Below are positions 29,808-61,140 of a DNA stretch of 64,000 nucleotides, in pieces. A program made the position numbers and the translations under genes. Numbering within the stretch: the stretch's first letter is position 1; the number at the start of each line of letters is the position of its first letter. Under the pieces are notes generated by a model that saw only the letters and a program-made list of their open reading frames with translations, had not been told where the DNA came from and ran no database searches. This DNA comes from Zeus faber. Its lineage: Eukaryota; Chordata; Actinopteri; Zeiformes; Zeidae. The stretch is from positions 21,892,066-21,956,065 of the forward strand of contig OY482847.1 in the NCBI GenBank assembly GCA_960531495.1, given 5' to 3'.

Positions 29808-30355
29808 TCAGTACCTTTTGGGCAGTCCTCTAGGTCTGTAGCGGTTGGGATTACCTCCATTGCGTCCCCAGCGGTTCGCTGCCTGGTCAGCAGCTGAGTC
29901 CAAATGTCCCCGGCCACTGCTTCCCTGAACCATCTCTCTGGCATTGCTAGAACACAGTCACACACATTGAATGGACCGACACCTCAAGAAGAGAATTTAA
30001 ATAAATGAAGTGAGCATTTATTCATTTGATACCTGATAACTGCAGCTGCCCATCTGCCCCCTGGTCCTCTTCGGGCAGCATCATGGTTTCCCCTGGCATG
30101 AAAGTATTTGTCTGAGTTCCTCCAGTTTGCCTCCCTCATGTCACCGTATGCACGCCACATATCACGAGCTCCTGATTAGGAAAGAGAAAAGGTGTATAAA
30201 GGGATAAATCATCTTCCATAAAGCGATAAACATTTACATATTTTCTGTCCAAAGTAAGTGAAGTTGTTACCTCCAGCAGCTTCCCTGGGGAAGTTGTACC
30301 ACTGGGCCTGAGTTCCCACAGCCACAAGTAGAAGTCCTGCTAGGATCAGCTGCAT
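29808..30355 (-). CDS. saa: serum amyloid A, copy 1 (SAA1 of the array)
   Basis: A three-exon gene read leftward: coding exons 30355-30271 (85 bases), 30171-30033 (139) and 29946-29808 (139), all joined by GT-AG introns, giving 120 residues. SAA is a secreted acute-phase apolipoprotein that binds HDL, lipids and retinol during inflammation. A hydrophobic signal peptide (1-17, [17 protein letters not shown]) precedes the mature protein. The family signature follows: [15 protein letters not shown] (30-44), [10 protein letters not shown] (48-57), [10 protein letters not shown] (62-71) and the C-terminal LADQAAN/GLPEKY-like end, here [14 protein letters not shown] and GLPKRY. It is the most divergent copy in the array (GNPNRY and PKRY, where others have GDPNRY/PNKY) and its 3' flank is unlike the rest. 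This suggests it is the oldest or edge copy. Confidence 0.95.
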
Positions 30356-30488
30356 GGTTGGAGATGTCTATGAACAAGATGAAGAGGAAAAATGTAAAAC
30401 AATACAAAAATATACATTAACAAAAAACACCTTCCTGCTTGTATACTGTAATTTAGGTAATTTATGTCTTGTTAAAAATAAGCCTTAC

Positions 30489-30535
30489 ATATTTGATAGG
30501 ATTTTGATGTATCTTGCAGTTAGTTTTCTACTAAT
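30489..30535 (-). other. SAA1 probable noncoding first exon
   Basis: Downstream of the TATA box on the minus strand, transcription would start near 30530. A donor-like at|gtaagg lies at 30489/30488. The matching acceptor is tcatag|acatctccaacc, 14 bases before the ATG (end of intron about 30370). This is inferred from sequence, and the same layout is conserved in all seven copies. Confidence 0.5.
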
Positions 30536-30554
30536 GTGCACTAATCTGTGTTCT

Positions 30555-30650
30555 CTTATATACTGTTGTTTTCAGGTGTGGCTGGTGAGTTTCTTCATGA
30601 TGGAAATTCCACAGTTAGAAAGGAGGAGTTAAAATAACTTTCACTTTCGT
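30555..30650 (-). promoter_or_regulatory. SAA1 promoter: TATA, kappaB-like and ISRE-like sites
   Basis: On the minus strand, from upstream to downstream: an IRF/ISRE-like GAAAGTGAAAGT (30637-30648), a kappaB-like GGAATTTCC (30602-30610, fits GGRNNYYCC) and a TATA box TATATAA (30556-30562). Spacing from the TATA box is about 40 bases to the kappaB-like site and 75 to the ISRE-like site. NF-kappaB control of SAA genes is established in mammals; the ISRE role is inference. Confidence 0.7.
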
Positions 30651-31417
30651 CCAGACAACTTCAGGTTATTCTCCATTTGTCAATCTGTAGTTGTATCCAG
30701 GCCGAAAACCAAGCAGTGAGCACACCGTGGAAAGTACGGTCAGTGTGGCAGACAATGAAAATTGTCCTAACGAGGACCTTTTGTGTCCTTTGTTTAACTA
30801 AACGGAACAAACTGAATTTACTGGAAAACTAAAGTTCAATCTGTTGTTTATAGATGTGAAGAGATGTGAAATTGCAACGCACAAGATTAGTGGTGCTGAC
30901 ACCCAAGTAAAAATTAAAGTTTGTGGGAAGGTTTGGTACCTAAAAATTTACAATTGTGCATGTTGCACATGCACAATTGATGGTTAGGTCAGGTCACATC
31001 AGGCGATTGGTCAACAACTATCAGCGGTTCAGTATTGTGGATGGAGCTTGTGATCAACAATGGCTGCACCAAGATAGCGCCACGCATAGAGGTAAACTAA
31101 AACAAATTAATTGTGTCACGTATGCACAGGTTGACAGAGTACACAGATCACATGAGTCAGTTACCACCATCTGCATCAACACATCAGCATCATCTGATCG
31201 CAATAATCCATGTGTGGCAATGTAAATAATCACTCTGGTAAAGTGAGTGTCACTTTACCGTCATGTGCGAAAACCCATTCAAGCCAGCCGCTGTATGGAC
31301 ATTTGATGTACATCTCTCCGTGATGTTACGGCTGTTTTTTTTCTTGCAAAAAACCTACAGGTGATGACTGAAAAAGAGTTAATTCATGTGAAGAAAGTCC
31401 TATGTTGATTTAAAGAT
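30651..31417. other. SAA1 upstream spacer
   Basis: The first part (about 30690-30935) is a shortened version of the spacer found upstream of the other SAA copies, with blocks such as aagcagtgagcacaccgtgg. The remainder (30940-31417) is sequence not repeated elsewhere in the window, containing the hairpin at 30951-30979. No gene recognised. Confidence 0.6.
30951..30979. repeat. perfect 13-bp inverted repeat
   Basis: Arms caattgtgcatgt and acatgcacaattg with a tgc loop. Found only here. It marks the edge where SAA1's upstream spacer stops resembling the other copies. Confidence 0.85.
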
Positions 31418-32464: not shown

Positions 32465-33175
32465 GACATCAGTTCAGGGTCCGATATAAAAATCTATCTT
32501 TGCAAAATTAAAAGCTCGTTTCTCTCACCTGCTTAATGCGATTTCTGCCCCTGAACGTCACTGCAGAGCTTCTCCATATCCGGGCTGTATGATGTCACCT
32601 TGAGCTTCACACATGACTGTTAGCTGTCATCAGTGAGTCGCGACCCAATTTTGCTTTTTATGAAGTTCATGGTGGAAAACACTTGCTCGCACAACTATGC
32701 TGATCCAAAGATGGACAGGACCCCAAATGCGTACGTGTTCATGTTCAAATAGGTGTCGGGAATGGCATCCCATGTCTCGATTCCACTCCACACTCCATGA
32801 AACGAACTTTAACGTTCTATTTTCGTTAAAAAACAGAAACTTTTCTTTTTTTGGATGTCTCCATGGTTAGCTTACCGGGCTTCGAGAGCTCAAAACAATT
32901 CAGCAGCCTGTCGGCAACAGGTGACGCATTCAAGGTGCGACGCATGTTTTGATGGACAAAATATTAAAACACGTTTTATTTCAATGTTACATGATCACCT
33001 GAATCTCCAGAATCATAACTATTACGTTGAAAAAATGAACTAAATAGAATTACATTGATTTAAATTAAATAGCCATTATTTATTCACACAATTTTCCCAA
33101 AGCCACAGGGAGCCACGGCAGAGGGATGAAAGAGCCACATGCGGCTCTGGAGCTTCGGGGTTTCCGGCCCCTGAT
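32465..33175 (-). mobile_element. hAT transposase C-terminal remnant
   Basis: On the minus strand, 'NMNTYAFGVLSIFGSA' then LCEQVFSTMNFIKSKIGSRL and 'SCVKLKVTSYSPDMEKLCSD' match the C-terminal dimerisation region of hAT transposases and the genes derived from them. One extra base and stops break the frame. The right edge (agccacatgcggctctggag, about 33135) is the typical terminal sequence of this family. The left terminus is in the second copy only (43555). Confidence 0.75.
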
Positions 33176-33346
33176 CCAGACCAATCAAAGCTTCCCTCTG
33201 TGCCTGATTGTTTTCCTTATCCTTGTATTATGTGATGTTGTCGTTTTTTTTTTGTTTTGCATTTCAGGTGAAAAATGAAATGCTTTGATGGAATTATGAA
33301 GTCTCAAATGGTCTTATGATCTATTTTGTCTATATCTTTGGGAATA

Positions 33347-33840
33347 TGCCAGGGAGGAAAGACTTTGATTGTCCCGATGGAGTGAAGCCACTGGGTGAAA
33401 ACGGATATTTTCATTGAAGCTCTTCACGCTAAGGGACACTCTCTCACCGTGTCACAAACATCCAAAAGCTGGTACATCAAGGAGGATTCTTCCCATTACA
33501 ATGCAATTACAATATCAGGTGATGAAGGCATTGATCCTGGGTTTGTTAACACATTTATGGCAAAAATAATTGCAATCGAAAGGGGACAGAGTTCAATGTT
33601 GAAATTTGCAAGTATGCTCATAGAGTTGTTTAATGGACGTTTTAATATTCATAGAATTGTGTGTAAAGTTGCTACTAACATGTTGAAAGATAAAGGATAA
33701 ATGACTTGTCTAGATGCCAGTAAGTATGACATGGTCCTGACTGACCCAGTATTCGGAGCTGGTATTATGTTGGCTCACTATCTGCAAATACCTTTGTATT
33801 CTGTTTTCCATTTTGAAGGGCAAGCACTCAAATTGATGAA
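33347..33840 (+). pseudogene. UDP-glucuronosyltransferase (UGT5-like) pseudogene, copy 1
   Basis: One continuous frame reads as the N-terminal acceptor-binding half of a fish UGT: GGKTLIVPM, then SHWVKTDIFIEALHAKGHSL, then AIERGQSSMLKFASM, and then LDASKYDMVLTDPVFGAGIM and AHYLQIPL. UGTs are ER enzymes that conjugate glucuronic acid to lipophilic compounds. Two in-frame stops, TGA at 33383-33385 and TAA at 33698-33700, break it, and the C-terminal UDP-sugar-binding half is absent. There is no ATG at the usual signal-peptide position. It is unlikely to make protein. It is near-identical to 44777-45270, including both stops. Confidence 0.85.
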
Positions 33841-34262
33841 ATGCTTTTCACTTTAAAGAACTGGGGATATCCCATGCATCTTGAGCACCATCTCTACTAA
33901 GTAAATTCTAAATCAATCAGATTCTTATTTTACACTTCTTTTGGTTTTTGGTCTCGAAAAGGTAAAGAGCTAATTTAGCCAGATGACTGACGTGTGAACT
34001 AAATGTGAGGTCAAACCACACCTCAAATTCAGGATTTGAAATCAGACGTGCATTTCCGGTCCCTGCACAAACATAAAAAAAAAACCCTCACACTCTTGCC
34101 TCATGGTAACAAGTGCTGTGCAACTTCAATGGACCACAGTCACTTTCTTCAATGTCACCCTGTCACCAAGAATTTGGTTATGTTGCTAGGTATTCAAGTC
34201 AAACATATGGATATAAGTATGTAAATAAAATAATAACAATAAACACCACAGTACTGTATACC

Positions 34263-34370
34263 GGGGGTGGGGGTGAAGTGATCGATCCAATTGATGCGAG
34301 AACCGATCTTGAAAACAAGACGTAGTGTCTGTTGTATTGATACTTTTGATATTGATCCGCCCACCCCTAA
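34263..34370. mobile_element. small MITE in SAA 3' flank
   Basis: About 108 bases with inverted ends (gggggtgggggtg... and gatccgcccacccctaa) and mirrored gatcgatcc/ggatcaatatc motifs. Related copies sit at the same place downstream of other SAA genes (37968-38075, 45693-45800, 49448-49555, a truncated one at 55438-55497, and 60026-60125). It was therefore present before the array expanded and serves as a marker. Confidence 0.6.
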
Positions 34371-34637
34371 TGGTACCAGCGAGCTCCAGCATTCAGTGAC
34401 GTGGCTGTTACGCTTTAGGATTGTACTCGTAACATACTTGATGTTGAAATGTTGGTATTATTTTCTTATTTTTCTTTAAAACCACACAAACTTTCATCAA
34501 TCAGATCAGAAATGATCTGTTAGAATATTGATGTCTTTGACAAACTATTGGTCCTGTAACAATCTCCATCTGTTTGAAAGAAAATTTGTAAATCTGGCAT
34601 GGAAAGACATACAGGTCAATTGTTTTAGTATTTGCTT

Positions 34638-34650
34638 TGTATTTATTAAG
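34638..34650 (-). terminator. SAA2 polyadenylation signal candidate
   Basis: The minus strand carries AATAAA (plus-strand tttatt in tttgtatttattaag) about 190 bases after the SAA2 stop codon. The same hexamer is conserved downstream of SAA3 to SAA7. Confidence 0.5.
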
Positions 34651-34838
34651 TCAGACGTTTGAATGTTACAACACTTTAAAAAATGATTAAAGACAGGACA
34701 TTATTTTATATTTTTGAACATAATGACCTGCAAAATATTTCTGCTATAACAATGCATGCATGCTCATTAATACAGTAGGGTGAGGTTGCTCAGTGAGTGT
34801 CTTTACACTGTAAGCTTCTTCTCAGGGTGTTTCCATCC

Positions 34839-35386
34839 TCAGTACTTTTTGGGCAGTCCTCTAGGTCTGTAGCGGTTGGGATCACCTCCATTGCGCCCCC
34901 AGCGGTTCGCTTCCTGGTCAGCAGCTGAGTCCAAATGTCCCCGGCCACTGCTTCCCTGAACCATCTCTCTGGCATCACTAGAACACAGTCACACACATTG
35001 AATGGACCGACACCTCATGAAGAAAATTTAAATAAATGAAGTGAGCATTTATTCATTTGATACCTGATAACTGCAGCTGCCCATCTGCCCCCTGGTCCTC
35101 TTCGGGCAGCATCACGGTTTCCCCTGGCATGAAAGTATTTGTCTGAGTTCTTATAGTTTGCCTCCCTCATGTCACCGTATGCACGCCACATATCACGAGC
35201 TCCTGATTAGGAAAGAGAAAAGGTGTAAAAAGGGATAAATCATCTTCCATAAAGCGATAAAGATTTACCTATTTTCTGTCCAAAGTAAGTGAAGTTGTTA
35301 CCTCCAGCAGCTTCCCTGGGGAAGTTGTACCACTGGGCCTGAGTTCCCACAGCCACAAGTAGAAGTCCTGCTAGGATCAGCTGCAT
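34839..35386 (-). CDS. saa: serum amyloid A, copy 2
   Basis: Coding exons 35386-35302, 35202-35064 and 34977-34839, with intact GT-AG borders and no stop, give 120 residues. It has the same signal peptide and the [15 protein letters not shown] signature as copy 1. Differences: the segment after MREAN reads YKNSDKYF rather than [12 protein letters not shown] replaces GNHD; the third exon opens SDARE; DQEANRW replaces DQAANRW; and the end is GLPKKY. The tyrosine at MREANY is also the residue in human SAA1. Its upstream ISRE-like, kappaB-like and TATA sites are all present. Confidence 0.95.
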
Positions 35387-35585
35387 GGTTGGAGATGTCT
35401 ATGAACAAGATGAAGAGGAAAAATGTAAAACAATACAAAAATATATATTTAAAAACTAACCTTCCTGCTTGTATACTGTAATTTGGTCAATTTATGTCAT
35501 GTTAAGAATAAGCCTTACATACTTGACAGGATTTTGATGTATCTTGCAAGTTAGTTTTCTACTACTGTGCACTAATCTGTGTTCT

Positions 35586-35680
35586 CTTATATACTGTTGT
35601 TTTCAGGGGTGGCTGGTGGGTTTCTTCATGATGGAAATTCCACAGTTAGAAAGGAGGAGTTAAAATAACTTTCACTTTCA
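35586..35680 (-). promoter_or_regulatory. SAA2 promoter: TATA, kappaB-like and ISRE-like sites
   Basis: TATATAA at 35587-35593, kappaB-like GGAATTTCC at 35633-35641 and ISRE-like GAAAGTGAAAGT at 35668-35679, read on the minus strand. The arrangement matches SAA1. Confidence 0.7.
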
Positions 35681-35689
35681 TCCAAACAA

Positions 35690-37202
35690 CTTGAGGTTAT
35701 TCCCCATTTGTCCATCTGTAGTAATAACCAGGCTGATATTGCAGCAACTCCATGTAAACAAAGTCCATGTCTGCGATACACGTCTTATTGATTGTTTCTA
35801 TAACTTTATTTACACAAGTTTTTCACACTGTGCTTATTTCTTTAGCTGTCAATTACACATTGTTATTCACTGTGCAAGAGTCTAGATTAAATTCAGAGCA
35901 ATTTTACTCCGGTCTAAATCAGTCTTTTAGAAACAGAACTAAAAACGAATTGTCATGGAATTACGTTTCACTCACAACTTGTTATTTGTGTTACTCAACC
36001 AGTTTGGCCAAGCTGTAATACTTCGGCCTCCATCTCAATAGTTTTTGTTATTAATATGTTTAATCCTCTCAATATGCATGGAATACATAACAAGTGCAAG
36101 TTCAATTTTCTCACCTGTTTGTAAATATCTTCTGATGTCCACTTTCCCTCATCATAGCTCCCATCCAGTGTGCTCCAGTTGTCCACTAGGTGGCGCACTA
36201 TCAGTTGTAGTGACCACATGTAAATCCATGAGGAAAGCCAAGCAGTGAGCACACCGTGGAAAGTAGTGTCATTTGCCAGACAGTGAAAATTGTCCCAAAC
36301 AGGACCATATGTGTCCTTTTTTAAAACTAAACGGAACAAACTGAATTTACTGGAAAACGAAAGATGGCTCAATGGGAAATCCACGGATTCCCTGCTCAGA
36401 GACACAATTTCCAAAACAAGCAGCCTTTCCTTAAAATAATCTTTACTACATACATGTATATTTATCCACCAATCAGAAAGATAAAGCAGAATATTGTTGC
36501 CTTGCCAAACCTCTGGTCCTGTCAGGTGATCACTGATTAGGAGATATCACTCTTACTTTTCTGGATGAACTTTTGATATATTTTGGGTTTTCTGGAGGGA
36601 AGAGAGAGTAAATAAGACATCCTCAATGTAAGGGTCGCAACCTCACGTGGAGACAGTTTTTAGTGCACACGTGACATTTTATTCATATATTTTACATTTT
36701 AAAAATTGTTGAGTAGGTTTGAAATATATCATAATTTCTATCTTATAAATTTGGAGCTCCTTCTCTGTATACGGTATGGAACCCCAATTGCTATTGTTCG
36801 GATTTTTATAATTTCCATTCTCCTTGGCACTTTACAGAAGTGTCTGGATCAGGACGACAGCTGCAGCTCCGGACACGGTTGAGGGGTCGTTAGAACCGGG
36901 ACGTCACAGACATTTCGTGGTTCAAGTTTAATCTAAATCGATCCACATACGGGGCAGAAATTAGTTAAAAACCAACAGATTATGACAGGAAGTAGCCGGA
37001 TGTTCGTGCATCGCTGGCACACCAACGTTCGAAAACTTTCAGATGAGTTTGAGTTTCAGACAAAATGAGTTTCTGGTGGAAGACACTTGAGACATCATCA
37101 TCCAATTCCTTATCAATGTGCAGGTTGTGGTGCCGAACATCCATTTGCGTTGTGCGTGCAGGGTGGTGTAGAGTTAGTCGCTCTGTAGTGGTTTGAGGTT
37201 AC

Positions 37203-37205
<3 letters not shown>
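35690..37205. other. SAA2 upstream spacer
   Basis: No gene called. The block is shared, at varying length, with the sequence upstream of SAA4 (near-identical), SAA5, SAA6 and SAA7. It includes an exon-like segment on the minus strand (about 36250-36115), a gaaatccacggattccc block near 36376, and CpG-containing unique sequence from about 36840 to 37150. The long open frames over it (36414-35995, -) are conserved with the duplicated copy but show no known domain. Confidence 0.6.
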
Positions 37206-37252
<47 letters not shown>

Positions 37253-37304
37253 TGCGTGCGTGCGTGCGTGCGTGTGTGCGTGCGTGCGTGCGTGCGTGCG
37301 TGTG
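37206..37304. repeat. (TG)n/(TGCG)n microsatellite
   Basis: About 40 bases of TG followed by TGCG/TGTG tetranucleotides. In the duplicated block (48638-48740) the TG tract is longer and the TGCG tract shorter, so this repeat has changed since duplication. Confidence 0.97.
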
Positions 37305-37967
37305 TACCATCGTACTTGTTAGACGTCGGCAGGGCTGTTCGATTGATATTTTATCTCTTTGGTCTTTTTGTAAATTAAGAATTTTTTTTCGGATCTAACT
37401 CCATGTTAGATGCAGAGTTGTGTTCCTCCTTGCTTTGCACGATTCGAGGAAGTAGTAGGATACAACATCTGTAGGGCCATAATGAGTTTCATATTCTCTG
37501 AATGAATGTGAAAAATCTATTTTGAAGGGCAAGCACGCAAATTGATGAATTGCTTTTCACTTTAGAACTGGGGATATCCCATGCATCTTGAGCACCATCT
37601 CTACTAAGTAAATTCTAAATCAATCAGATTCTTATTTTACACTTCTTTTGGTTTTTGGTCTCGAAAAGGTAAAGAGCTAATTTAGCCAGATGACTGACGT
37701 GTGAACTAAATGTGAGGTCAAACCACACCTCAAATTCAGGATTTGAAATCAGACGTGCATTTCCGGTCCCTGCACAAACATAAAAAAAACCCTCACACTC
37801 TTGCCTCATGGTAACAAGTGCTGTGCAACTTCAATGGACCACAGTCACTTTCTTCCATGTCACCCTGTCACCAAGAATTTGGTTATGTTGCTCGGTATTC
37901 AAGTCAAACATATGGATATAAATATTTAAATAAAATAATAACAATAAACGCCACAGTACTTTATACC

Positions 37968-38075
37968 GGGGTTGGGGGTGAGGCGATCGATCCAATTGAC
38001 GCGAAAACCGATCTTGAAAACAAGACGTAGTGTCTGTTGAATCGATGCTTTTGATATTGATCCGCCCACCCCTAA
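37968..38075. mobile_element. small MITE in SAA3 3' flank
   Basis: The same element as at 34263-34370, with several point differences (for example ggttgggggtgaggcgatcg). Position relative to the SAA stop codon is conserved. Confidence 0.55.
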
Positions 38076-38542
38076 TGGTACCAGCGAGCTCCAGCATTCA
38101 GTGACGTGGCTGTTACGCTTTAGGATTGTACTCGTAACATACTTGATGTTGACATGTTGGTATTATTTTCTTATTTTTCTTTAAAACCACACACACTTTG
38201 ATCAATCAGATCAGAAATGATCTGTTAGAATATTGATGTCTTTGACAAACTATTGGTCCTGTAACAATCTCCATCTGTTTGAAAAACATTTGTAAATCTG
38301 GCATGGAAAGACATACAGCTCAATTGTTTTAGTATTTGCTTTGTATTTATTAAGTCAGACGTTTAAATGTTACAACACTTTAAAAAATGATTAAAGACAG
38401 GACATTATTTTATATTTTTGAACATAATGACCTGCAAAACATTTCTGCTATAACAATGCATGCATGCTCATTAATACAGTAGGATGAGGTTGCTCAGTGA
38501 GTGTCTTTACACTGCAAGCTTCTTCTCAGGGTGTTTCCATCC

Positions 38543-39090
38543 TCAGTACTTGTTGGGCAGTCCTTTAGGTCTGTAGCGGTTGGGATCCCCTCCATTGCGT
38601 CCCCAGCGGTTCGCTTCCTGGTCAGCAGCTGAGTCCAAATGTCCCCGGCCACTGCTTCCCTGAACCATCTCTCTGGCATCACTAGAACACAGTCACACAC
38701 ATTAAATGGTCCGACACCTCATGAAGAAAATTTAAATAAATGAAGTGAGCATTTATTCATTTGATACCTGATAACTGCAGCTGCCCATCTGCCCCCTGGT
38801 CCTCTTCTGGCAGCATCATAGTTTCCCCTGGCATGAAAGTATTTGTCTGAGTTCTTCCAGTTTGCCTCCCTCATGTCACCGTATGCACGCCACATATCAC
38901 GAGCTCCTGATGAGGAAAGAGAAAAGGTGTAAAAAGGGATAAATCATCTTCCATAAAGCGATAAACATTTACATATTTTCTGTCCAAAGTAAGTGAAGTT
39001 GTTACCTCCAACAGCTTCCCTGGGGAAGTTGTACCAATGGGCCTGAGTTCCCACAGCCACAAGGAGAAGTCCTGCTAGGATCAGCTGCAT
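38543..39090 (-). CDS. saa: serum amyloid A, copy 3
   Basis: Coding exons 39090-39006, 38906-38768 and 38681-38543; 120 residues; no frameshift or stop. Distinguishing residues: AHWYN after the signal peptide (others AQWYN), EAVGG at the exon 1/2 junction (shared with copy 5), [12 protein letters not shown] as in mammalian SAA, and the end RPKGLPNKY. The coding region is intact, but the promoter differs from its sisters: the ISRE-like site is destroyed and the kappaB-like site is changed. This gene may therefore respond differently or weakly. An L2-type LINE begins about 340 bases upstream of its ATG (39435). Confidence 0.95.
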
Positions 39091-39275
39091 GGTTGGAGAT
39101 GTCTATGAACAAGATGAAGAGGAAAAATGTAAAACAATACAAAAATATACATTAAAAAAAAACCTTCCTGCTTGTATACTGTAATTTAGGTAATTTATGT
39201 CTTGTTAAAAATAAACCTTACATACTTGACATCTTGCAAGTTAGTTTTCTACTAATGTGCACTAATCTGTGTTCT

Positions 39276-39375
39276 CTTATATACTGTTGTTTTCAGGGGT
39301 GGCTGGTGGTTTTCTTCATGATGGATATTCCACAGTTACAAAGGAGGAGTTAAAATAACTTTCACCCCTCATCCA
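39276..39375 (-). promoter_or_regulatory. SAA3 promoter, altered
   Basis: The TATA box (39277-39283) is kept. The kappaB-like site reads GGAATATCC (39323-39331), a weaker match. The ISRE-like position reads gaggggtgaaagt instead of gaaagtgaaagt, so the tandem GAAA motif is lost. Confidence 0.6.
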
Positions 39376-39434
39376 AACAACTTGAGGTTATTCCCCATTT
39401 GTCCATCTGTAGTAATAACCAGGCTGATATTGTT

Positions 39435-48633: not shown

Positions 48634-48637
<4 letters not shown>
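47120..48637. other. SAA4 upstream spacer
   Basis: Near-identical to 35690-37205, without a recognisable gene. Confidence 0.6.
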
Positions 48638-48705
<68 letters not shown>

Positions 48706-48740: not shown

Positions 48741-48760
48741 ACCATCGTACTTGTTAGACG

Positions 48761-49447: not shown

Positions 49448-49555
49448 GGGGGTGGGGGTAAAGTGATCGATCCAATTGATGCGAGAACCGATCTTGAAAA
49501 CAAAACGTAGTATCTGTTGTATCGATACTTTTGATATTGATCCGCCCACCCCTAA
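49448..49555. mobile_element. small MITE in SAA5 3' flank
   Basis: Counterpart of 37968-38075. Confidence 0.55.
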
Positions 49556-50022
49556 TGGTACCAGCGAGCTCCAGCATTCAGTGACGTGGCTGTTACGCTT
49601 TAGGATTTTACTTGTATCACACCTGATGTTTACATGTTGGTGTTACTTTCTTATTTTTCTTTAAAACCACACACACTTTGATCAATCAGATCAGAAATGA
49701 TCTGTTAGAATATTGTTGTCCTTGACAAACTATTGGTCCTGTAACAATCTCCATCTGTTTGAAAAACATTTGTAAATCTGGCATGGAAAGACATACAGCT
49801 CAATTGTTTTAGTATTTGCTTTGTATGTATTAATTCAGATGTTTAAATGTTACAAAACTTCATGATTATTAACAACAGGGCATTTTTTTAAATATTTTTG
49901 AACATAATGACTTGCAAAGCATTTCTGCTATAACAATGCATGCATGCTCATTAATACAGTAGGGTGAGGTTGCTCAGTGAGTGTCTTTACACTGCAAGCT
50001 TCTTCTCAGGGTGTTTCCATCC

Positions 50023-50570
50023 TCAGTACTTGTTGGGCAGTCCTTCAGGTCTGTAGCGGTTGGGATCACCTCCATTGCGTCCCCAGCGGTTCGCTTCCTG
50101 GTCAGCAGCTGAGTCCAAATGTCCCCGGCCACTGCTTCCCTGAACCATCTCTCTGGCATCACTAGAACACAGTCACACACATTGAATGGACCGACACCTC
50201 ATGAAGAGAATTTAAATAAATGAAGTGAGCATTTATTCATTTCATACCTGATAACTGCAGCTGCCCATCTGCCCCCTGGTCCTCTTTGGGCTGCATCATG
50301 GTTTCCCCTGGCATGAAAGTATTTGTCTGAGTTCCTCCAGTTTGCCTCCCTCATGTCACCGTATGCACGCCACATATCACGAGCTCCTGATTAGGAAAGA
50401 GAAAAGGTGTAAAAAGGGATAAATCATCTTCCATAAAACGATAAACATTTACCTATTTTCTGTCCAAAGTAAGTGAAGTTGTTACCTCCAACAGCTTCCC
50501 TGGGGAAGTTGTACCACTGGGCCTGAGTTCCCACAGCCACAAGTAGAAGTCCTGCTAGGATCAGCTGCAT
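50023..50570 (-). CDS. saa: serum amyloid A, copy 5
   Basis: Coding exons 50570-50486, 50386-50248 and 50161-50023; 120 residues; intact. Shares EAVGG with copy 3, its counterpart in unit A. In exon 2 it resembles copies 6 and 7 ([12 protein letters not shown]) with AAQRGPGG. The end is RPEGLPNKY, shared with copies 6 and 7. So the gene looks like a mosaic of the unit A/B lineage and the copy 6/7 lineage, consistent with gene conversion. TATA, kappaB-like and ISRE-like sites are all present. Confidence 0.95.
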
Positions 50571-50771
50571 GGTTGGAGATGTCTATGAACAAGATGAAGA
50601 GGAAAAATGTAAAACAATACAAAAATATACATTAACAAAAACTAACCTTCCTGCTTGTATACTGTAATTTGGTCAATTTATGTCATGTTAAGAATAAGCC
50701 TTACATACTTGACAGGATTTTGATGTATCTTGCAAGTTAGTTTTCCACTAATGTGCACTAATCTGTGTTCT

Positions 50772-50866
50772 CTTATATACTGTTGTTTTCAGGGGTGGCT
50801 GGTGGGTTTCTTCATGATGGAAATTCCACAGTTAGAAAGGAGGAGTTAAAATAACTTTCACTTTCA
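50772..50866 (-). promoter_or_regulatory. SAA5 promoter: TATA, kappaB-like and ISRE-like sites
   Basis: TATATAA at 50773-50779, kappaB-like GGAATTTCC at 50819-50827 and ISRE-like GAAAGTGAAAGT at 50854-50865 on the minus strand. Confidence 0.7.
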
Positions 50867-50879
50867 TCCAAACAACTCA

Positions 50880-53430
50880 AGGTTATTCCCCATTTGTCCA
50901 TCTGTAGTAATAACCAGGCTGATATTGCAGCAACTCCATGTAAACAAAGTCCATGTCTGCGATACACTTGTTATTGATTGTTTCTATAACTTTATTTACA
51001 CAAGTTTTTAGCACTGTGCTTATTTCTTTTACTGTCACACATAGTGACACACATTGTTATTACTAAATATATATATTTTAGGAACAGAACTAAAAAACAA
51101 TTTTAGTAAAATTAAAATTTTACCTGCATCTCTTTTTTCTTATGTTACTCAACAAGTTTGGCCAAGTTGTGTAACTTTGCCTCCATCATAATTTTTTTTT
51201 TTTTATGTATACAGTATAATCCTCCGAAGATGCATGGAATAAATAATGTAATGATTTTAGTCACAAGTGCAAGTCAAATTTTCTCATCGCATTTCTAAAT
51301 CTGTTACTGTTTGTAAATATCTTCTGATGTCCACTTTCCCTCATCATAATTCCCATCCAGTGTGCTCCAGTTGTCCACCAGGTGGCGCACTATCAGTTGT
51401 AGTGACCACATGTAAATCCATGAGGAAAGCCAAGCAGTGAGCACACCGTGGAAAGTACTGTCATTTGGGCAGACAGTGAAAATTGTCCTAGACAGGACCT
51501 TTCGTGTCCTTTTGTTTAACTAAACAGAACAAACTGAATTTACTGGAAGACAAAAGATGGCTCCATGGGAAATCCACGGATTCCCTGCTCAGAGACACAA
51601 TTTCCAAAACAAGCAGCCTTTCCTTAAAATAATCTTTACTACATACATGTATATTTATCCACCAATCAGAAAGATAAAGCACAATATTGTTGCCTTGCCA
51701 AACTTCTGGTCCTGTCAGGTGATCATTATCTCGGAAATATCACTGTCTTTGTTTTTACTTTTCTGGATAAAATGTTGATATATTCTGGGTTTTTTTACCG
51801 GAGAGACGAGAGTAAATGAGACATCCTCAACCTTAGGGTCGCAACCTCAACACTTTGTAATGGACATGGGACCACAGGACATTTCCAAGACTGATATATT
51901 TATGTTTTATTCATATATCTTACATCTAAATAATTGTTGAGTAGGTTTTAAATGTATCATAATCTTATATAAACCATTTGGAGCTCCCTCCATGTATTTG
52001 TTTATTTAATGTAAAATAAAAGTAGCCTTTGCAATACTGTATTTCACATGAAGTTTCCAACTATTCAGTGTAGAATGTATGCACTTTGACCAGCAATGTA
52101 CTGTCACCTCTGAAACTACAGTAAGAAAGATTGTTATTGAGGTTCATTCTGTTGTTTATAGGCTGAGATGTGAATTACAATCCATAGATTAGAAGTGATG
52201 GCTCCAAAGTAAAAATCTTACTCAATCTTTCCAACTGCTGTTGCCGCGAAAAGTTTGCGACCTAAAAATGGAGTCATTGGCCAAAACAGGTTGAGGAAGC
52301 CTGGATTGTTAGAAATGCCCTGAATGCCTGTAATTTGTTGAACGGAAACCATTTAGGTTTTCAATTGATACTACTTAGAATTATGGTTTGGTTGTTTTTT
52401 TTCCAGTTTCTAGTGTTGTATTGATATTTTTAATAATTGATTTAGTCAGTGAGGTTGATTTGACCCTTGAATGATAGTCATCTTACTCTAACTTAAGTTC
52501 TATGATCACAGGCAAAGTCCTCAGGCTTCGCCCTTATTGGCTTCCCCCGCATGCATGCGTGTCTTACTGAAATTTTGGATGTACCCATCAGCCTATCAGC
52601 TGTGACCTGCCCCTATAAAAGGGCCCTGCGCCCGCTATTCTGCTTCCCAGGGATCTTAAGCGGCCCCAGGAACACAGCAGGGCAGGAAAAGCTGGAGGGC
52701 TTTGCCAATGAACATAGAACTTGAGTTAGAGTGAGCTAACTATCGTTCTATTTCACAAAGGCTCTGTCCTCTAGCTTCGTCCTTATTGGCATACCACACG
52801 CCCTGCTGTCAAGACCCAAGGCAATAGCGGTACAGCTAGCCAACTTATAGGCATAATCACTTCCAAGACACAACGGAGCAGCGGGAACGTTATACTCATA
52901 CCCAGAGTCCCACTTAACAATAGCATTGTGATGCACACCATTTGAGAAGGTCTACAATGTATCTGGACCAATAGTTAAACAAATCCCGCACTGGGACTGT
53001 CCATCCTCATTTGCATACTGGATAAATGGATAACTCTAACTTATCCGCCTAATGTAGTCAGTGTTAGCACTCGACAACAGACGCTGTGCAGAGCACCTAG
53101 GAGGACAGAGATCCTCTAGATAAATCCAGTAGATTAAATCTGAAAAAGGGGCATGGTGACGCCCATGACGCTGCCATGCAAATGTCCTACACTGATACAC
53201 CTCCAAACAGGGCAGTGGACGACACTCTGCAGCAAGTTTTGCCACCTGGCACTCTGCAAGCTTCACTCCACTTGCAGAGTGTCAGGGGGCAAAACGTACC
53301 CAATTTCCGTGTAGGCTTGTGCGATGCCGTCACACTCTTCTTCTTCTTCTTCTTCTTTCGGCTGCTTCACTCCTGCTGGAACCCTTCTGTCACAGATCAC
53401 TCCGGATACTCTTCTCCACCCCCTCCACCC
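50880..53430. repeat. block Z, copy 1 (upstream of SAA5)
   Basis: This block recurs at about 61450-64000 with a constant offset of about 10570 bases and very high identity. It contains the SAA upstream spacer, then a segment with inverted and direct internal repeats (52487-53300), then the start of an RTE fragment. Confidence 0.9.
52487..53300. mobile_element. probable DIRS-type terminal/internal repeat region
   Basis: The segment taacttaagttctatgatca (52491) is inverted at 52700-52735 (gaacatagaacttgagttag). The block cttcgcccttattggc (about 52527) is repeated directly at about 52775 (cttcgtccttattggc). Mixed inverted and direct repeats of this kind are typical of the ends of DIRS-like elements, and a DIRS coding remnant lies nearby (58.2-59.65 kb). 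The link between the two is inference. Minus-strand frames at 52936-52748 and 53266-53036 are open but unrecognised. Confidence 0.45.
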
Positions 53431-53885
53431 TGCCTGCACTCTCTTCTTCACCTCTCTCCCGCACTCTCCGCTGCTTTGGATGATCAACCCCAAGTACTTG
53501 TACTCCTCCGTCTTCTCCACCTACACTCCTTGCATTCTCAGCTTTTCGCTGCCCTCCCTCCCATCCAGGCACATGGATTCTGTCTTACTCCTGCTGACTT
53601 ACATTCCTCTTCTCTCTAACGCATGCCTCCACTTCTCCAGGCTCTCCTCAACCTGCTCCCTACTCTCGCTACAGATCGCAATGTCATCCACGAACATCAT
53701 AGTCCACGGAAACTCCTGCCTGATTTCTTCTGTTAACCTGTCCATCACCATTGCAAACAAGAAAGGGCTCAGAGTTGATCCTTGATGCAATCCCACCTCC
53801 ACTTTGAATGCCTTTGTCACGCCTACTGCACACCTTACTACTGTCTGACTGCCCTCATACATATCCTGTAGCACTCTTACGTACT
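53325..53885 (-). mobile_element. RTE-type LINE, internally deleted
   Basis: On the minus strand: MYEGSQTVVRCAVGVTKAFK, then GLHQGSTLSPFLFAMVMDRL and the catalytic FVDDIAICSES (normally FADDI), with CGREVKKRVQAGWRGWRRVS further on, then a direct jump into the 3' end (KQPKEEEEEE encoded by the GAA-rich tail). The region between thumb and tail, present in the copy at 31.4-31.9 kb, is deleted. Frameshifts are also present. Confidence 0.9.
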
Positions 53886-54549
53886 TCTATGCGAAGAGCG
53901 TCGTTGAGGCCCCTCCCCATAGTCCAGTCCCGCTTGAAAGACTCAGTATAGACGTCATCGGGCCGTTTGACCGCAGTGCCCGCGGGATCATTTTGTGTTA
54001 ATCCATAGTGGATTATGCGACCCAGTACCCCATAGCAGTGCCCCTGCCCAGTGTTACGACCAAAAGTGTGGCGCAGGCGCTGTTTCAGGTCGTCTCCCGA
54101 GTCGGGATTCCGAAAGAAATCCTGACCGACCACGGCACAACCTTTATGTCACGTACACTTCAGGAACTTTATGAGTTACTGGGCGTCCGTTCAATTCAGA
54201 TTCAGCATTTACCATCCCCGGACCGACGGCCTGGTGGAGCGCTTTAAAACACTGAAAAACATGATTTGAAAAATCACGACGATAGCCCTCATTGGGACAA
54301 GTTGTTGGACCCCCTGTTGTTTGTGGTGCGGGAGGTTCCCCAGGCCTCCAGGGGATTTTGTCCCTTTGAACTCCTCTTCGGCAGGAGACCCGGGGGGTGC
54401 TAGACCTAATTAAAGAAAACCAAGAGGAAGGTCCGAGCATCAGTAAGAACGAAATACAGTATGTTATGGACCTGAGAGCAAAGTTGCAGTGTCAGTGCCT
54501 CTTATACGACCGGGGGGCTCTACTCATATAATTTGCACTGGGAGACAAG

Positions 54550-54759
54550 GTGTTAGTGTTGCTCCCTACGTCCAGCTCTAAAATGCTCGTGAAGTGGCAA
54601 GGGCCTTTTGTTGTCACAGGGCGGGCTGTTGAGGTCGATTATGAGGTTGAACGGGCTGACAGGCAGGGGGCCACACAGATTTATCACCTAAACCTCTTAA
54701 AAGAATGGCCGGAGGGGTCCGTGGCTCTGGTCACGCCGGTCATTGTGCAGGATGAGTAG
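54550..54759 (+). pseudogene. Gypsy integrase C-terminal fragment
   Basis: 69 open codons with the chromatin/DNA-binding GPF/Y-type module of Gypsy integrases (MLVKWQGPFVV, residues about 12-22, and YHLNLLKEWPEG near 45-56). It is separated from the integrase core by frameshifts around 54400-54545. Confidence 0.8.
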
Positions 54760-54949
54760 GTCCGGAGGTTCAAAGAGCGGCCGATCATACCGCAGCCCTG
54801 TTAAGTGACCATCTCTCCATCTCGCTGTACTTCAGGGTTGCTTCTCTGATCTGCCCTGCCATGCCTCACGTCCCTCATACACCACCATGTGGAGACGACT
54901 CTTGGGGTGAAGGTGCGCTCTCGGCCATATCGCCTGCCAGAGCACAATC

Positions 54950-55183
54950 GTGCAGGTGAAATTAGAGGCCATGCTGGACATGGGCGTAACAGAGGAGTCC
55001 ACGAGTGACTGGTCTAGTCACAACATGCTGGTGGGTAAGCCCGATAGGTCGCTCCGGCTCTGTGTGGACTACCAAAGGGCGAATGCAGTGTCAAAGTTCG
55101 ACGCCTACCCGATGCCCCGGGTCGATCAACTTCTCGACCAGTTAGATATGGCTTGTTTTTTCACCACACTCTATTTAACCTAG
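54950..55183 (+). pseudogene. Gypsy reverse transcriptase N-terminal fragment
   Basis: 77 open codons of the RT fingers (GVTEESTSDWSSHNMLVGKP at about 12-31, LCVDYQRANAVSKFDAYPMP at about 37-56, FFTTLYLT at the end, normally FFTTLDLT). The aspartate of the first catalytic motif is replaced by tyrosine, so the enzyme would be dead even without the stops that follow. Confidence 0.85.
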
Positions 55184-55942
55184 GGCCATTGGCAGATTCC
55201 CTTGTCTCAAGAGTCCAAGGAAAAACCTGTGTTCTCCACTCTGTTTGGCTGTGCTGCTTTCACACAGTTCCGGGTTGTTCGGTGCCCCAGCCACTTTTCA
55301 GAGACTCATGGACTGCGTCCTACATCCGCATGTAGCATACGCCACAGCCTACCGAGACGATATAGATAACCGAGATGAAGTGAGTTATGAAGTGAGTTCC
55401 TCAGGCATTTATTTTTCTTTTTCTATTTCAATTTGCGCTGGGGGGAGGGTACAATCCTATTAACGTGAGAATCGATCTTGAAAACGAGACGTAGTGTAGT
55501 GCATTCAAAGACGTGGCTGTTACACTGTAGGGTTGTACTTGTAACATACTTGATGTTGACATGTTACTTTCTTATCTTTCTTTAAAACCACACACACTTT
55601 GATCAATCAGATCAGAAATGCTCTGTTAGAATATTGATGTCTTTGACAAACTATTGGTCGCGTAACAATCTCCATCTGTTTGAAAGAAAATTTTAAATCT
55701 GGCATGGAAAGACATACAGCTCAATTGTTTTAGTATTTGCTTTGTATTTATTAAATCAGACGTTTAAATGTTACAACACTTCATGAATTATTAACAACAG
55801 GGCATTTTTTTATATTTTTGAACATAATGACTTGCAAAACATTTCTGCTATAACAATGCATGCATGCTCATTAATACAGTAGGATGAGGTTGCTCAGTGA
55901 GTGTCTTTACACTGCAAGCTTCTTCTCAGGGTGTTTCCATCC

Positions 55943-56490
55943 TCAGTACTTGTTGGGCAGTCCTTCAGGTCTGTAGCGGTTGGGATCACCTCCATTGCGT
56001 CCCCAGCGGTTCGCTTCCTGGTCAGCAGCTGAGTCCAAATGTCCCCGGCCACTGCTTCCCTGAACCATCTCTCTGGCATCACTAGAACACAGTCACACGC
56101 ATTGAATGGACCGTCACCTCATGAAGAGAATTTAAATAAATGAAGTGAGCATTTATTCATTTGATACCTGATAACTGCAGCTGCCCATCTGCCCCCTGGT
56201 CCTCTTTGGGCAGCATCATGGTTTCCCCTGGCATGAAAGTATTTGTCTGAGTTCCTCCAGTTTGCCTCCCTCATGTCACCGTATGCACGCCACATATCAC
56301 GAGCTCCTGATTAGGAAATAGAAAAGGTGTAAAAAGGGATAAATCATCTTCCATAAAGCGATAAACATTTACATATTTTCTGTCCAAAGTAAGTGAAGTT
56401 GTTACCTCCAGCAGCTTCCCTGGGGAAGTTGTACCACTGGGCCTGAGTTCCCACAGCCACAAGTAGAAGTCCTGCTAGGATCAGCTGCAT
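55943..56490 (-). CDS. saa: serum amyloid A, copy 6
   Basis: Coding exons 56490-56406, 56306-56168 and 56081-55943; 120 residues; intact. EAAGG at the exon 1/2 junction, [20 protein letters not shown] and the end RPEGLPNKY. It is very close to copy 7, from which it differs mainly at AAQR versus AAKR. The TATA box and kappaB-like site are retained, but the ISRE-like site is altered. Confidence 0.95.
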
Positions 56491-56691
56491 GGTTGGAGAT
56501 GTCTATGAACAAGATGAAGAGGAAAAATGTAAAACAATACAAAAATATACATTAACAAAAACTAACCTTCCTGCTTGTATACTGTAATTTGGTCAATTTA
56601 TGTCATGTTAAGAATAAGCCTTACATATTTGATAGGATTTTGATGTATCTTGCAAGTTCGTTTTCCACTAATGTGCACTAATCTGTGTTCT

Positions 56692-56790
56692 CTTATATAC
56701 TGTTGTTTTCAGGGGTGGCTGGTGGGTTTCTTCATGATGGAAATTCCACAGTTAGAAAGGAGGAGTTAAAATAACTTTCACCTTTATCCA
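56692..56790 (-). promoter_or_regulatory. SAA6 promoter: TATA and kappaB-like, ISRE-like altered
   Basis: TATATAA at 56693-56699 and kappaB-like GGAATTTCC at 56739-56747. At the ISRE-like position the minus strand reads ataaaggtgaaagt, so the first GAAA is changed. Confidence 0.65.
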
Positions 56791-56799
56791 AACAACTCA

Positions 56800-58185
56800 A
56801 GGTTATTCCCCATTTGTCCATCTGTAGTAATAACCAGGCTGATATTGCAGCAACTCCATGTAAACAAAGTCCATGTCTGCGATACACTTGTTATTGATTG
56901 TTTCTATAACTTTATTTACACAGGTTTTTAGCACTGTGCTTATTTCTTTAACTGTCACACATAGTCACACACACATTGTTATTACTAAATATTTTTTATA
57001 GGGACAGAACTAAAAACAAATTTTAGTAAAATAAAAATTTTACCTGCATCTCTTTTTTCTTATGTTACTCAACAAGTTTGGCCAAGTTGTATTACTTTGG
57101 CCTCCATCATAATTATTTTTTATTTTTGTATACAGTATAATTCTCTGAATATGCATGGGATAAACAATGCAATTGATTTTAGTCATAAGTGCAAGTTCGA
57201 TTTTCTCATCGCATTTCTAAATCTGTTACTGTTTGTAAATATCTTCTGATGTCCACTTTCCCTCATCATAGCTCCCATCCAGTGTGCTCCAGTTGTCCAC
57301 TAGGTGGCGCACTATCAGTTGTAGTGACCACATGTAAATCCATGAGGAAAGCCAAGCAGTGAGCACACCGTGGAAAGTACTGTCATTAGGCAGACAGTGA
57401 AAATTGTCCTAGACAGGACCTTTCGTGTCCTTTTTTAAAACGTAACAGAACAAACTGAATTTACTGGAAGACAAAAGACGGCTCAATGGGAAATCCACGG
57501 ATTCCCTGCCCAGGGACACAATTTCCAAAACAAGCAGCCTTTCCTTAAAATAATCTTTACTACATACATGTATATTTATCCACCAATCAGAAAGATACAG
57601 CAGAATATTGTTGCCTTGCCAAACTTCTGGTCCTGTAAGGTGATCACTGATTAGGAGATATCACTCTTACTTTTCTGGATGAACTTTTGATATATTTTGG
57701 GTTTTCTGGAGGGAAGAGAGAGTAAATTAAACATCCTGAACGTTGGGGTCGCAACCTCACGTGGGGACAGTTTTTAATGCACACGTGATATTTTATCCAT
57801 ATATTTTACATTTAAAAATCTACCAATCAGAAAGATGAAGCAGAATATTATTGCCAAACTTCTGGTCCTGTAAGGGGATCACCGATGAGTAAATATCAAT
57901 TTTTTTTTAACTTTTCTGTATTTACTTTTGATATATTACGTTTTTTTCTGGAGAGACGAGAGTAAATTAGAAATCCTCAACCTTGGGGTCGCAACCTCAC
58001 GTGGGAATACTTTTTAATGCACATGGTTCCACAGAACATTTCCAAGACTGATATTTTTATATTTTATTCATATATTTTACATTTAAAAAAATGTTCAGTA
58101 GGTTTTAAATGTATCATAATTTCATATAATCCATTTGGAGCTCCCTCCATGTATTTGTTTATTTATTGTAAAATAAAAGTAGCCT
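56800..58185. other. SAA6 upstream spacer
   Basis: Related to the other SAA upstream spacers, with an internal partial tandem repeat (57540-57790 versus 57810-58010). No gene recognised. Confidence 0.6.
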
Positions 58186-59655
58186 CTGCAATACTGTGGG
58201 TAGAAAGAGTCAAGCACAATGTCCCTTGAACAATAGGAGCCTCTGATGTTCTTCAGGATGAAAACCAGGTTAGGTTTCAATGTCGCTGAACTTAGATTTC
58301 CATTCATAAAAAGGCAGCTGGGGTGCCTGGACAGGGCAGCCAGTTCCCCCCCGTGTTTAGCAGATGTCAAGCAGAAGTGTTGTTTTGACGGACAGCTCTT
58401 TTTAAAGGCATGATGTCAACTGGTTCAAAGCGCTCACCTGTGAGACAGTTCAGCACCTATGCCAGGTCCCATTTTGAGGGGAAAGCGTGACGGGGGTCGG
58501 ATACGTTTTGCTCCCTGTAGGAAGTGTTTAATCGAAATAGCCGATGCATACATCTTAACAGTGGAAGGAGATAAATCCATGACCAATAACCACTGGAGAT
58601 AGGAAAGCATATATTTTGCCGGGCAGGAGGTCCTTCGCACCGGCGTTAGAAAGATCTCCACTTCCCAGTGTACTGAGTGTTGGAAAAAGCTGCCCTGGCA
58701 CTCTATCGTATTATTCACCACAGATGACAAGCCTCGTTGTTGTAGCCCCAACCTCTCAGGTACCGGGCCACCAGTGGCTTACTGAGAATCAGGCCCTGTT
58801 TTATCATTCCCTGTGCCCCGGAGATGGCACCCAGGAACCTGGGTATTGGCCATGTTTCGTCCGCCAGTAAATGGACCAGCTCCAATTACCATGTGTGTTC
58901 CGGGGCTACTGGGACAAGGCACGCTCTCTCCTCTCTCTCTCTCTCGTTAGCAGGTGGTCTACGAGGTGGATCGGAGGGAACCTGTGAAGCAGCTCGGGGG
59001 GGCCAGGGCGCGTGGGCAAACTCATCCACTCCCAGGAGGTGAAGGGAGAACCAGAGCATTGCTGAGTGTTCTGCCTGGTTCAAACAGGTCCACCCGTGCT
59101 TCTCCAAAGCGACGTCAGATCTGCCCAACTCCGTCTGGGTTCAGGTGTCACTCGCTCTCTGATGGTCCCCCGTGGGACGTCAGATCAGCCCCAACATTCT
59201 GTATTCCAGGAATGTAGAGAGCTCTCAGGCTGCGGAGATTGGCAGGCGCCCAGTGCCACAGTCTGGCTGCTAAGCGATGCAGGTTCGCCAACCTCACCCC
59301 GCCTTGTCGGTTGATATAAGCTGCTGCCTAAGCTGTTGTTTATCCTGACCAAAACGTCACAGTTCCTGAGGCAAACTGTTGTAGCACCAGGAGGACTGTA
59401 TTTACTTCCAACACGTTCATGTGTTTGGACGCGGGATTCAGTCTCTCCCCTCCCACTGCTAAGCGGTGGCACGTTCCTCCCCATCCCTCCAGGGACGCAT
59501 CCATGAAGATGGTCACGTGACTGGACATGCTTCCCAGGGGGACGCTGAGGGCCAGGGAACAGCCATTTCCTTAGTGGTTCAAGTCGGCATCGATGGAGGC
59601 TGGGGTCGTCAGAAAACCTTTTTTGTGACATACAGCATCGACGTCAAAGACAGAT
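58186..59655 (-). mobile_element. DIRS-type tyrosine-recombinase retrotransposon remnant
   Basis: The minus strand reads in DIRS order. First RNase H: 'VTIFMDASLEGWGGTCHRLA' (about 59520) and 'KHMNVLEVNTVLLVLQQFAS', and in another frame DVLVRINNSLGSSLYQPTRR. Then the N-terminal part of the tyrosine recombinase: LSYLQWLLVMDLSPSTVKMY with AISIKHFLQGAKRIRPPSRF (58751-58434), and MTSAKHGGELAALSRHPSCL (58370-58122). The reverse transcriptase core and the recombinase catalytic end are missing, and several frameshifts are present. It sits in the spacer between SAA6 and SAA7 only. Confidence 0.85.
58434..58751 (-). pseudogene. DIRS tyrosine recombinase N-terminal fragment
   Basis: 105 open codons. 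The stretch from about residue 48 onward (LSYLQWLLVMDLSPSTVKMY, then ASAISIKHFLQGAKRI) is the SAM-like core-binding part of DIRS recombinases. Catalytic Arg/His/Tyr residues are not in this fragment. Confidence 0.8.
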
Positions 59656-60002
59656 ACACAGATACTCTTTAAATCAGTGAAGGGCTGTACGTGAGTCAGA
59701 TGATTTGGCTCATCTCAGCAATAAGAGCCGACTCTTCTGTTCTTCATTAAGTACCACTTCTGGCTTTTATATTTCAGCCAAATTTAGCAATGTTTTGACC
59801 GTCGATTGGTATGTGTGCACTTGTATCAGTTCAATTATTCAATGTTATTATACTAAGCCTTACTGTTTCCAGAATACTTATACAGACACATACATTTCAA
59901 TGTAATAAGTATGACATAACATGAAACAAAAAAACATTTGTTGTCAGAAAACATCTGTTCAGAAATGTTTTTTGTTATTCCTCATGCATTTCTTTTTCTT
60001 TT
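59656..60002. other. no recognisable gene
   Basis: Unique AT-rich sequence between the DIRS remnant and the SAA7 unit. Confidence 0.5.
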
Positions 60003-60025
60003 TCTTTATCTATTTCAATTTGCGC

Positions 60026-60125
60026 TGGGGGGAGGGTATCGATCCTATTGACGTGAGAATCGATCTTCAAAACGAGATGTAGTGTCGGTAGTATCGATAC
60101 TTTTGATATAGATCCACCCACCCCT
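60026..60125. mobile_element. small MITE in SAA7 3' flank
   Basis: Counterpart of 34263-34370, with ggggggagggtatcgatcc on the left and gatccacccacccctat on the right. Confidence 0.55.
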
Positions 60126-60592
60126 ATGGTAACAGTGAGCTCCAGCATTCAGACGCGTGGCTGTTACACTGTAGGGTTGTACTTGTATCATACTTGATGT
60201 TTACATGTTGGTGATACTTTCTTATTTTTCTTTAAAACCACACACACTTTGATCAATCAGATCAGAAATGCTCTGTTAGAATATTGATGTCTTTGACAAA
60301 CTATTGGTCCCGTAACAATCTCCATCTGTTTGAAAGAAAATTTTAAATCTGGCATGGAAAGACATACAGCTCAATTGTTTTAGTATTTGCTTTGTATTTA
60401 TTAAGTCAGACATTTAAATGTTACAACGCTTCATGAATTATTAACAACAGGGCATTTATTAATATTTTTGAACATAATGACTTATAAAACATTTCTGCTA
60501 TAACAATGCATGCATGCTCATTAATACAGTAGGATGAGGTTGCTCAGTGAGTGTCTTTACACTGCAAGCTTCTTCTCAGGGTGTTTCCATCC

Positions 60593-61140
60593 TCAGTACT
60601 TGTTGGGCAGTCCTTCAGGTCTGTAGCGGTTGGGATCACCTCCATTGCGTCCCCAGCGGTTCGCTTCCTGGTCAGCAGCTGAGTCCAAATGTCCCCGGCC
60701 ACTGCTTCCCTGAACCATCTCTCTGGCATCACTAGAACACAGTCACACGCATTGAATGGACCGTCACCTCATGAAGAGAATTTAAATAAATGAAGTGAGC
60801 ATTTATTCATTTGATACCTGATAACTGCAGCTGCCCATCTGCCCCCTGGTCCTCTTTTGGCAGCATCATGGTTTCCCCTGGCATGAAAGTATTTGTCTGA
60901 GTTCCTCCAGTTTGCCTCCCTCATGTCACCGTATGCACGCCACATATCACGAGCTCCTGATTAGGAAAGAGAAAAGGTGTATAAAGGGATAAATCATCTT
61001 CCATAAAGCGATAAACATTTACATATTTTCTGTCCAAAGTAAGTGAAGTTGTTACCTCCAGCAGCTTCCCTGGGGAAGTTGTACCACTGGGCCTGAGTTC
61101 CCACAGCCACAAGTAGAAGTCCTGCTAGGATCAGCTGCAT
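60593..61140 (-). CDS. saa: serum amyloid A, copy 7
   Basis: Coding exons 61140-61056, 60956-60818 and 60731-60593; 120 residues; intact. [25 protein letters not shown] (the lysine also found in mammalian SAA) and the end RPEGLPNKY. Its 3' flank is like SAA6 (for example the cacgcattgaatggaccgtc intron block), but its 5' flank beyond about 61450 is like that of SAA5. The gene therefore sits at a recombination junction. The ISRE-like site is altered as in SAA6. Confidence 0.95.

Follow-up and report, generated by a model that had tools for sequence, protein, structure and literature searches.

How many serum amyloid A (SAA) genes are present at this locus of Zeus faber, how did they arise, and does their number reflect selection? 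In a first-pass annotation, the window, that is the whole stretch of 64,000 nucleotides analysed here, was described as carrying seven intact three-exon SAA genes in one tandem array, the size of which was ascribed to selection for dosage or diversified function.

The SAA genes and their surroundings

All seven genes were found within 29808-61140 on the minus strand, but seven is the count of the window and not of the array. SAA matches were obtained beyond the window end, so that the window edge cuts an array of 11 genes (A to K) covering 53.5 kb, with ten genes on the minus strand and K inverted; H, I and J (minus strand) and K (plus strand) occupy 66514-83327, just outside the window, in coordinates continued from it. 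The whole assembly (803 Mb, 153 contigs) was searched with the Pfam SAA profile and with the gene E protein. The profile gave 22 exon matches (25 candidates scored), 22/22 in the array, and the protein gave 33 exon matches (24 candidates scored), corresponding to 11 x 3 and all in the array; whole-assembly match counts cover the unmasked sequence and are lower bounds for large families. Neither search led to an SAA match outside the array in the 803 Mb. A sensitive local search of the 114 kb from the window start gave 28 matches, 22 of which were the 11 genes in two pieces each and the other six weak (E 1.1 to 8.7), and no SAA pseudogene or orphan exon was found in these 114 kb. Chance is excluded as the source of the seven genes of the window.

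The genes are assigned to serum amyloid A by their Pfam and PDB matches. The gene E product, the only one scanned spliced against Pfam, matched PF00277 over profile positions 2-102 of 102 (161 bits, E=1.1e-47), and its PDB matches comprised 8 distinct sequences, each listed as SAA or amyloid protein A, with E values of 3.5e-44 to 1.5e-26 (3.5e-44 to 2.4e-41 for the full-length SAA chains). Coding exons 2 and 3 scored above the Pfam SAA cut-off in 11/11 copies, while the first coding exons were recovered by the gene E protein search. NCBIfam gave no match for the SAA protein, and the N-terminal signal peptide, judged by eye, is putative.

As first described, coding exons of 85/139/139 bases, GT-AG borders at both introns and 120 codons were recovered in the seven window genes. 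Each frame has 363 bases (120 codons plus stop), and neither a frameshift nor a stop codon was found in any of the 11 copies, all of 120 codons; the statement that every copy is intact is borne out and extends to the frames and splice sites of all 11. The 11 proteins are all distinct, with 90.8-99.2% identity (95.9-99.7% for the coding DNA). The description as three-exon genes stands for the coding exons, but the SAA genes probably have four exons, the first of them non-coding, as is the first exon of the four-exon SAA layout. In every copy the ATG is preceded by a TATA box, TATATAAG, at a distance of 193-209 bases, by a GT donor near -78 and by an AG acceptor at 12 bases; the bases after the donor differ in A, C and K. 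Together these signals agree with a 5' non-coding exon 1.

A predicted kappaB-like site, GGAATTTCC, recognised by sequence match, is present at -255 to -257 in 10/11 copies and is replaced by GGAATATCC in gene C. This nonamer occurs 8 times in the window on both strands, 6 of the 8 being at SAA promoters. The sole hint of acute-phase induction in liver is this predicted site in 10/11 promoters. Downstream of the stop codon, the poly(A) signal AATAAA is located at ~190 bases in B-D and F-K, AATACA replaces it in gene E, and gene A has its own AATAAA at 216, within a different 3' sequence. Such differences outside the frames of A, C and E suggest that the copies need not be equally active.

Table 1. 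Coordinates of the SAA genes, predicted promoter sites and repeat units, numbered from the first base of the window.
Feature	Position	Strand	Remarks
SAA gene A	29808-30355	-	coding exons 30355-30271, 30171-30033, 29946-29808; array edge copy
SAA gene B	34839-35386	-	coding exons 35386-35302, 35202-35064, 34977-34839
SAA gene C	38543-39090	-	coding exons 39090-39006, 38906-38768, 38681-38543
SAA gene D	46269-46816	-	coding exons 46816-46732, 46632-46494, 46407-46269
SAA gene E	50023-50570	-	coding exons 50570-50486, 50386-50248, 50161-50023
SAA gene F	55943-56490	-	coding exons 56490-56406, 56306-56168, 56081-55943
SAA gene G	60593-61140	-	coding exons 61140-61056, 60956-60818, 60731-60593
SAA gene H	67061-66514	-	window-continued coordinates
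SAA gene I	71709-71162	-	window-continued coordinates
SAA gene J	76241-75694	-	window-continued coordinates
SAA gene K	82780-83327	+, inverted	window-continued coordinates
kappaB-like site, A	30602-30610	-	sequence match
kappaB-like site, B	35633-35641	-	sequence match
kappaB-like site, D	47064-47072	-	sequence match
kappaB-like site, E	50819-50827	-	sequence match
kappaB-like site, F	56739-56747	-	sequence match
kappaB-like site, G	61389-61397	-	sequence match
Shared core as in A	29797-30705	-	93.6-96.0% to the other ten copies over 855-911 columns
B-C two-gene segmental unit	33147-39440		96.6% to 44577-50935 over 6.36 kb
D-E unit, second copy of the B-C unit	44577-50935		self-comparison
E-F two-gene higher-order unit, 10.57 kb	49453-60025		self-comparison
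Following 10.57 kb unit, holding G and, beyond the window, H	60026-64000, on to about 70595		self-comparison

To the right of the array, Pfam identified a Ferritin, an L27 protein and a member of the NGF family, together with a 60S acidic ribosomal protein fragment below the Pfam cut-off (26.1 vs 28.1 bits). By sequence we take this fragment to be rplp2, the L27 neighbour to be lin7-like and the NGF family neighbour to be bdnf-like. Since human SAA, LIN7C and BDNF are all on 11p, the neighbourhood of the array looks like the orthologous SAA region. A globin exon gave haemoglobin beta chains as its best PDB matches (9tpz, followed by 2r1h, a rainbow trout chain); like the SAA and neighbour sequences, these matches point to a fish.

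On the left, an intronless, uninterrupted frame of 827 codons at 23590-26073 (plus strand), 3.7 kb from gene A, matched IFT88 (PDB 8bd7, E=5.4e-173). Its parent is on another contig, in 22 matched pieces, and the comparison over 823 codons gave a dS of 0.53, a dN of 0.084 and a ratio of 0.16, in which two pieces aligned across introns should mainly raise dN. The frame appears to be an old retrocopy that has been kept open and looks constrained. Against NCBIfam, the best 25 of 26 families were all below their cut-offs, and a literature search on ift88 retrogenes gave, by title, no paper on such a retrocopy. The same flank contains a frame of 214 amino acids at 12422-13066 (plus strand) with no Pfam match, which to us reads like a piece of a Tc1/mariner transposase, and a fragment with a reverse transcriptase domain (PF00078) at 17699-18025 (minus strand). 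A frame matching Pfam ALKBH8_N (PF09004) at 27240-27731 (minus strand) is probably a retroelement fragment; it has an inverted partner of 241 bases, 90% complementary, between C and D (41108-41348). The 5,000 bases that adjoin the window on its left read N, either as a gap or as masked sequence.

Duplication and exchange among the copies

The architecture of the array was obtained by self-comparison of the 114 kb. All copies share a core of up to ~910 bases, composed of the proximal promoter, the putative non-coding exon 1 and the gene, and shortest between A and J (855). At a larger scale the B-C unit is repeated as D-E, and 49453-64456 is 98.06% identical to 60026-75039 over 15.0 kb. A third unit of the 10.57 kb type, partly deleted, carries I and J, whereas K with 3.4 kb around it is an inverted copy, 95-96% identical to the surroundings of E, G and I, and further unit fragments were found up to about 86.7 kb. 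The array grew by segmental duplication. TG-rich simple repeats are present at 37207-37305 and 48638-48740, at corresponding positions within the B-C and D-E units, and are possible exchange points.

The similarity of gene A to the other copies ends 11 bases past the stop codon, and the 2 kb of 3' flank tested to the left of 29797 gave no match elsewhere in the 114 kb. Upstream, its core reaches to about 350 bases from the ATG. Beyond that limit, 30712-30834 matches, at 87-90%, spacer sequence that is about half a kilobase more distant in other units, and further upstream-side pieces resemble spacers near 44.0-44.6 kb (97-99%) and, in inverted orientation, at 79.7-80.1 kb (91%). These spacer matches place A in the same duplication system, with a rearranged upstream spacer. 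The idea that gene A has unrelated sequence on both sides was rejected, because only the 3' side is unrelated and the upstream side shares spacer pieces. C and J differ from the other copies further upstream.

Within the core, the relationships among copies change from one part to another: D is identical to E, and F to G, in intron 2, whereas over the 330 upstream bases the closest relative of F is H and that of G is I. The 878 bases compared contain 35 informative sites with two states; of the 595 pairs that these form, 329 were incompatible with one tree. Neighbouring sites were less often incompatible than in shuffled order, with a home-made, PHI-like statistic whose p value was only 0.013-0.018 without the 3' flank (0.018 for the 11 copies, 0.013 for B-K) and 0.0002 (B-K) or 0.0004 (E-J) with it. 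The minimum number of exchanges among the SAA copies, Rmin, was 16 in the 878 bases, a count that repeated mutations, even few, could inflate and that does not distinguish conversion from crossing over. Judged from these site patterns, the SAA paralogues have mosaic relationships, indicating that recombination or conversion re-mixed the core in at least 16 events.

An array of this kind might also be produced by the assembly, if haplotypes or repeat units had been wrongly put in tandem and a smaller array inflated. The E-F, G-H and I-J units are 97-98% identical, a level that allelic divergence might reach in a very diverse fish. However, two haplotypes should not give three units, the B-C unit differs from D-E by 3.4%, and all 11 copies differ in protein. 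In addition, the 114 kb that extend rightward from the window start, part of one contig of 40 Mb, are free of N, and the other contigs are without an SAA match. Nor is there another near-identical copy of the neighbouring IFT88-like frame, for which the 19 further matches are pieces of 51-97% identity on another contig. The absence of a gap, the single contig, the differing copies and the lack of a match elsewhere reduce the concern, without removing it, and we consider an artefact very unlikely. The SAA array is very probably real, unusually large and recently growing, and its genes are ordinary SAA.

We favour, with a probability of about 0.8, a lineage-specific tandem expansion of an ordinary vertebrate SAA gene, with a re-mixed core and products that are likely acute-phase apolipoproteins. 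One SAA locus would have been multiplied through unequal exchange of one-gene, then two-gene segments, the end copy K being inverted, and the promoter-plus-gene core of ~0.9 kb would have been re-mixed by recombination or gene conversion. Each gene would most likely code for a secreted, inflammation-induced HDL apolipoprotein, its expression, induction and HDL binding being presumed, and the likeliest physiological effect would be a higher ceiling of acute-phase SAA output with a modest variety of isoforms.

Selection, neutral expansion and charge

The selection for dosage or diversified function proposed in the first pass was not established. Over all 55 pairs of the 11 copies, piN was 0.0212 and piS 0.0286, a ratio of 0.74 whose bootstrap 95% range (0.30-2.07) includes 1 and is compatible with constraint, neutrality and diversification alike. 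The ratio was 0.64 without A and 0.31 for E-K only, the latter value arguing in favour of constraint. Diversity was 2.8-3.3% in introns and 1.3-2.6% in exons. Seven indel events were found in the 280 bases upstream and none in the introns or exons of the core; as the core introns are also without indels, exons free of frameshifts are not special. Among random changes, 4.8% lead to a stop codon, so that for the 28 variable coding positions (4+11+13) 1.3 stops would be expected without constraint, with a chance of 0.26 of finding none; for 37 sites, as if the coding sequence varied like the non-coding core, 1.8 stops would be expected, with a chance of 0.17. Zero stops are thus likely enough at this divergence, and 11 intact frames are weak evidence for constraint.

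These values leave room for a neutral expansion, in which an exchange-prone array gained extra copies of no benefit, and these have kept their frames by being young and re-copied. Exchange among copies keeps them alike without selection on copy number, and the recombination described above, the core introns free of indels, the chances of 0.17-0.26 of seeing no stop and the wide range around 0.74 all agree with such an expansion, as do the changed sites in C and E and the foreign 3' flank of A. Against it, the 114 kb searched contain no SAA pseudogene or orphan exon, the TATA and splice signals are retained in 11/11 copies, and piN/piS is 0.31 within E-K. We regard neutral expansion as a serious possibility, though one we would not put at even odds; it is compatible with the tandem expansion that we favour.

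Diversifying selection might alternatively have acted on the charge of SAA, with more cationic copies at the left end and isoforms that differ in affinity for membranes, LPS or HDL. The pI computed for the mature proteins, on the assumption that residue 17 is the last before the cut, declines along the array from 11.2 (A) to 10.3 (B), 10.0 (C), 9.8 (D) and 9.2-9.8 (E-K). A and E have six differences that change charge (codons 62, 76, 97, 107, 114 and 118), and each of them makes A more positive. However, neighbouring copies are related, so that inheritance alone could give a gradient, and the gradient was noticed after the fact; it is therefore a lead only. Moreover, the divergence between A and E in exon C (139 bases) was 8/139 vs 5/185 in introns, an excess that is not significant (p=0.25). 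Selection on charge appears unlikely to us. The array could also be viewed as an isoform generator, in which a shuffled promoter-plus-gene cassette yields SAA proteins of pI graded from 11.2 to 9.2-9.8, a proposal that we hold to be quite improbable. If it were true, one acute-phase burst would free a set of SAA variants and not one abundant apolipoprotein, and the variants would bind bacterial surfaces, LPS, glycosaminoglycans or HDL with differing affinity.

Comparison with other SAA loci

The four-exon SAA layout is given in the available text of PMC6117975, as are a mouse cluster of 42 kb with 5 members, including one pseudogene, and a human group of four in 160 kb. Like the human (SAA1-4) and mouse (Saa1-5) clusters, the Zeus faber locus comprises clustered SAA paralogues, here probably of four exons with a predicted exon 1; unlike them, it has 11 genes, of which none is a pseudogene as judged by frame, together with a higher-order repeat of two genes and a single inverted copy. 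As all 11 copies have 120 codons, an SAA4-type insertion of 8 residues is absent from each.

The first-pass view that many fish carry one or a few copies agrees with the available parts of three sources: a single SAA gene in fishes (PMC6405052), one saa gene in zebrafish, Atlantic salmon and sturgeon (PMC7746741), and three annotated SAA genes in Atlantic salmon and four in rainbow trout (PMC10453338). Zebrafish saa and salmonid SAA/SAA5 are of the same family as the genes described here and are acute-phase genes in those species, where the numbers given are one (zebrafish) and three or four (salmonids) compared to 11. The copy number in Zeus faber exceeds those given in the accessible text of PMC6405052, PMC7746741, PMC10453338 and PMC6117975. 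By title or start of abstract, no published fish SAA array was found in the open-licence literature, mostly among the best matches listed. Teleost ApoD clusters, as far as the accessible part of PMC6325677 describes them, are also a ligand-transporter gene expanded as a cluster, in a different gene family.

In the available text of PMC6405052, zebrafish is used as a vertebrate in which SAA is one gene. An array of 11 genes in a fish would show that the single-gene statement fails for some fishes, and would allow the dosage of a major acute-phase protein to be compared in a natural setting. In fish-health assays of SAA, primers or antibodies would read the sum of the copies.
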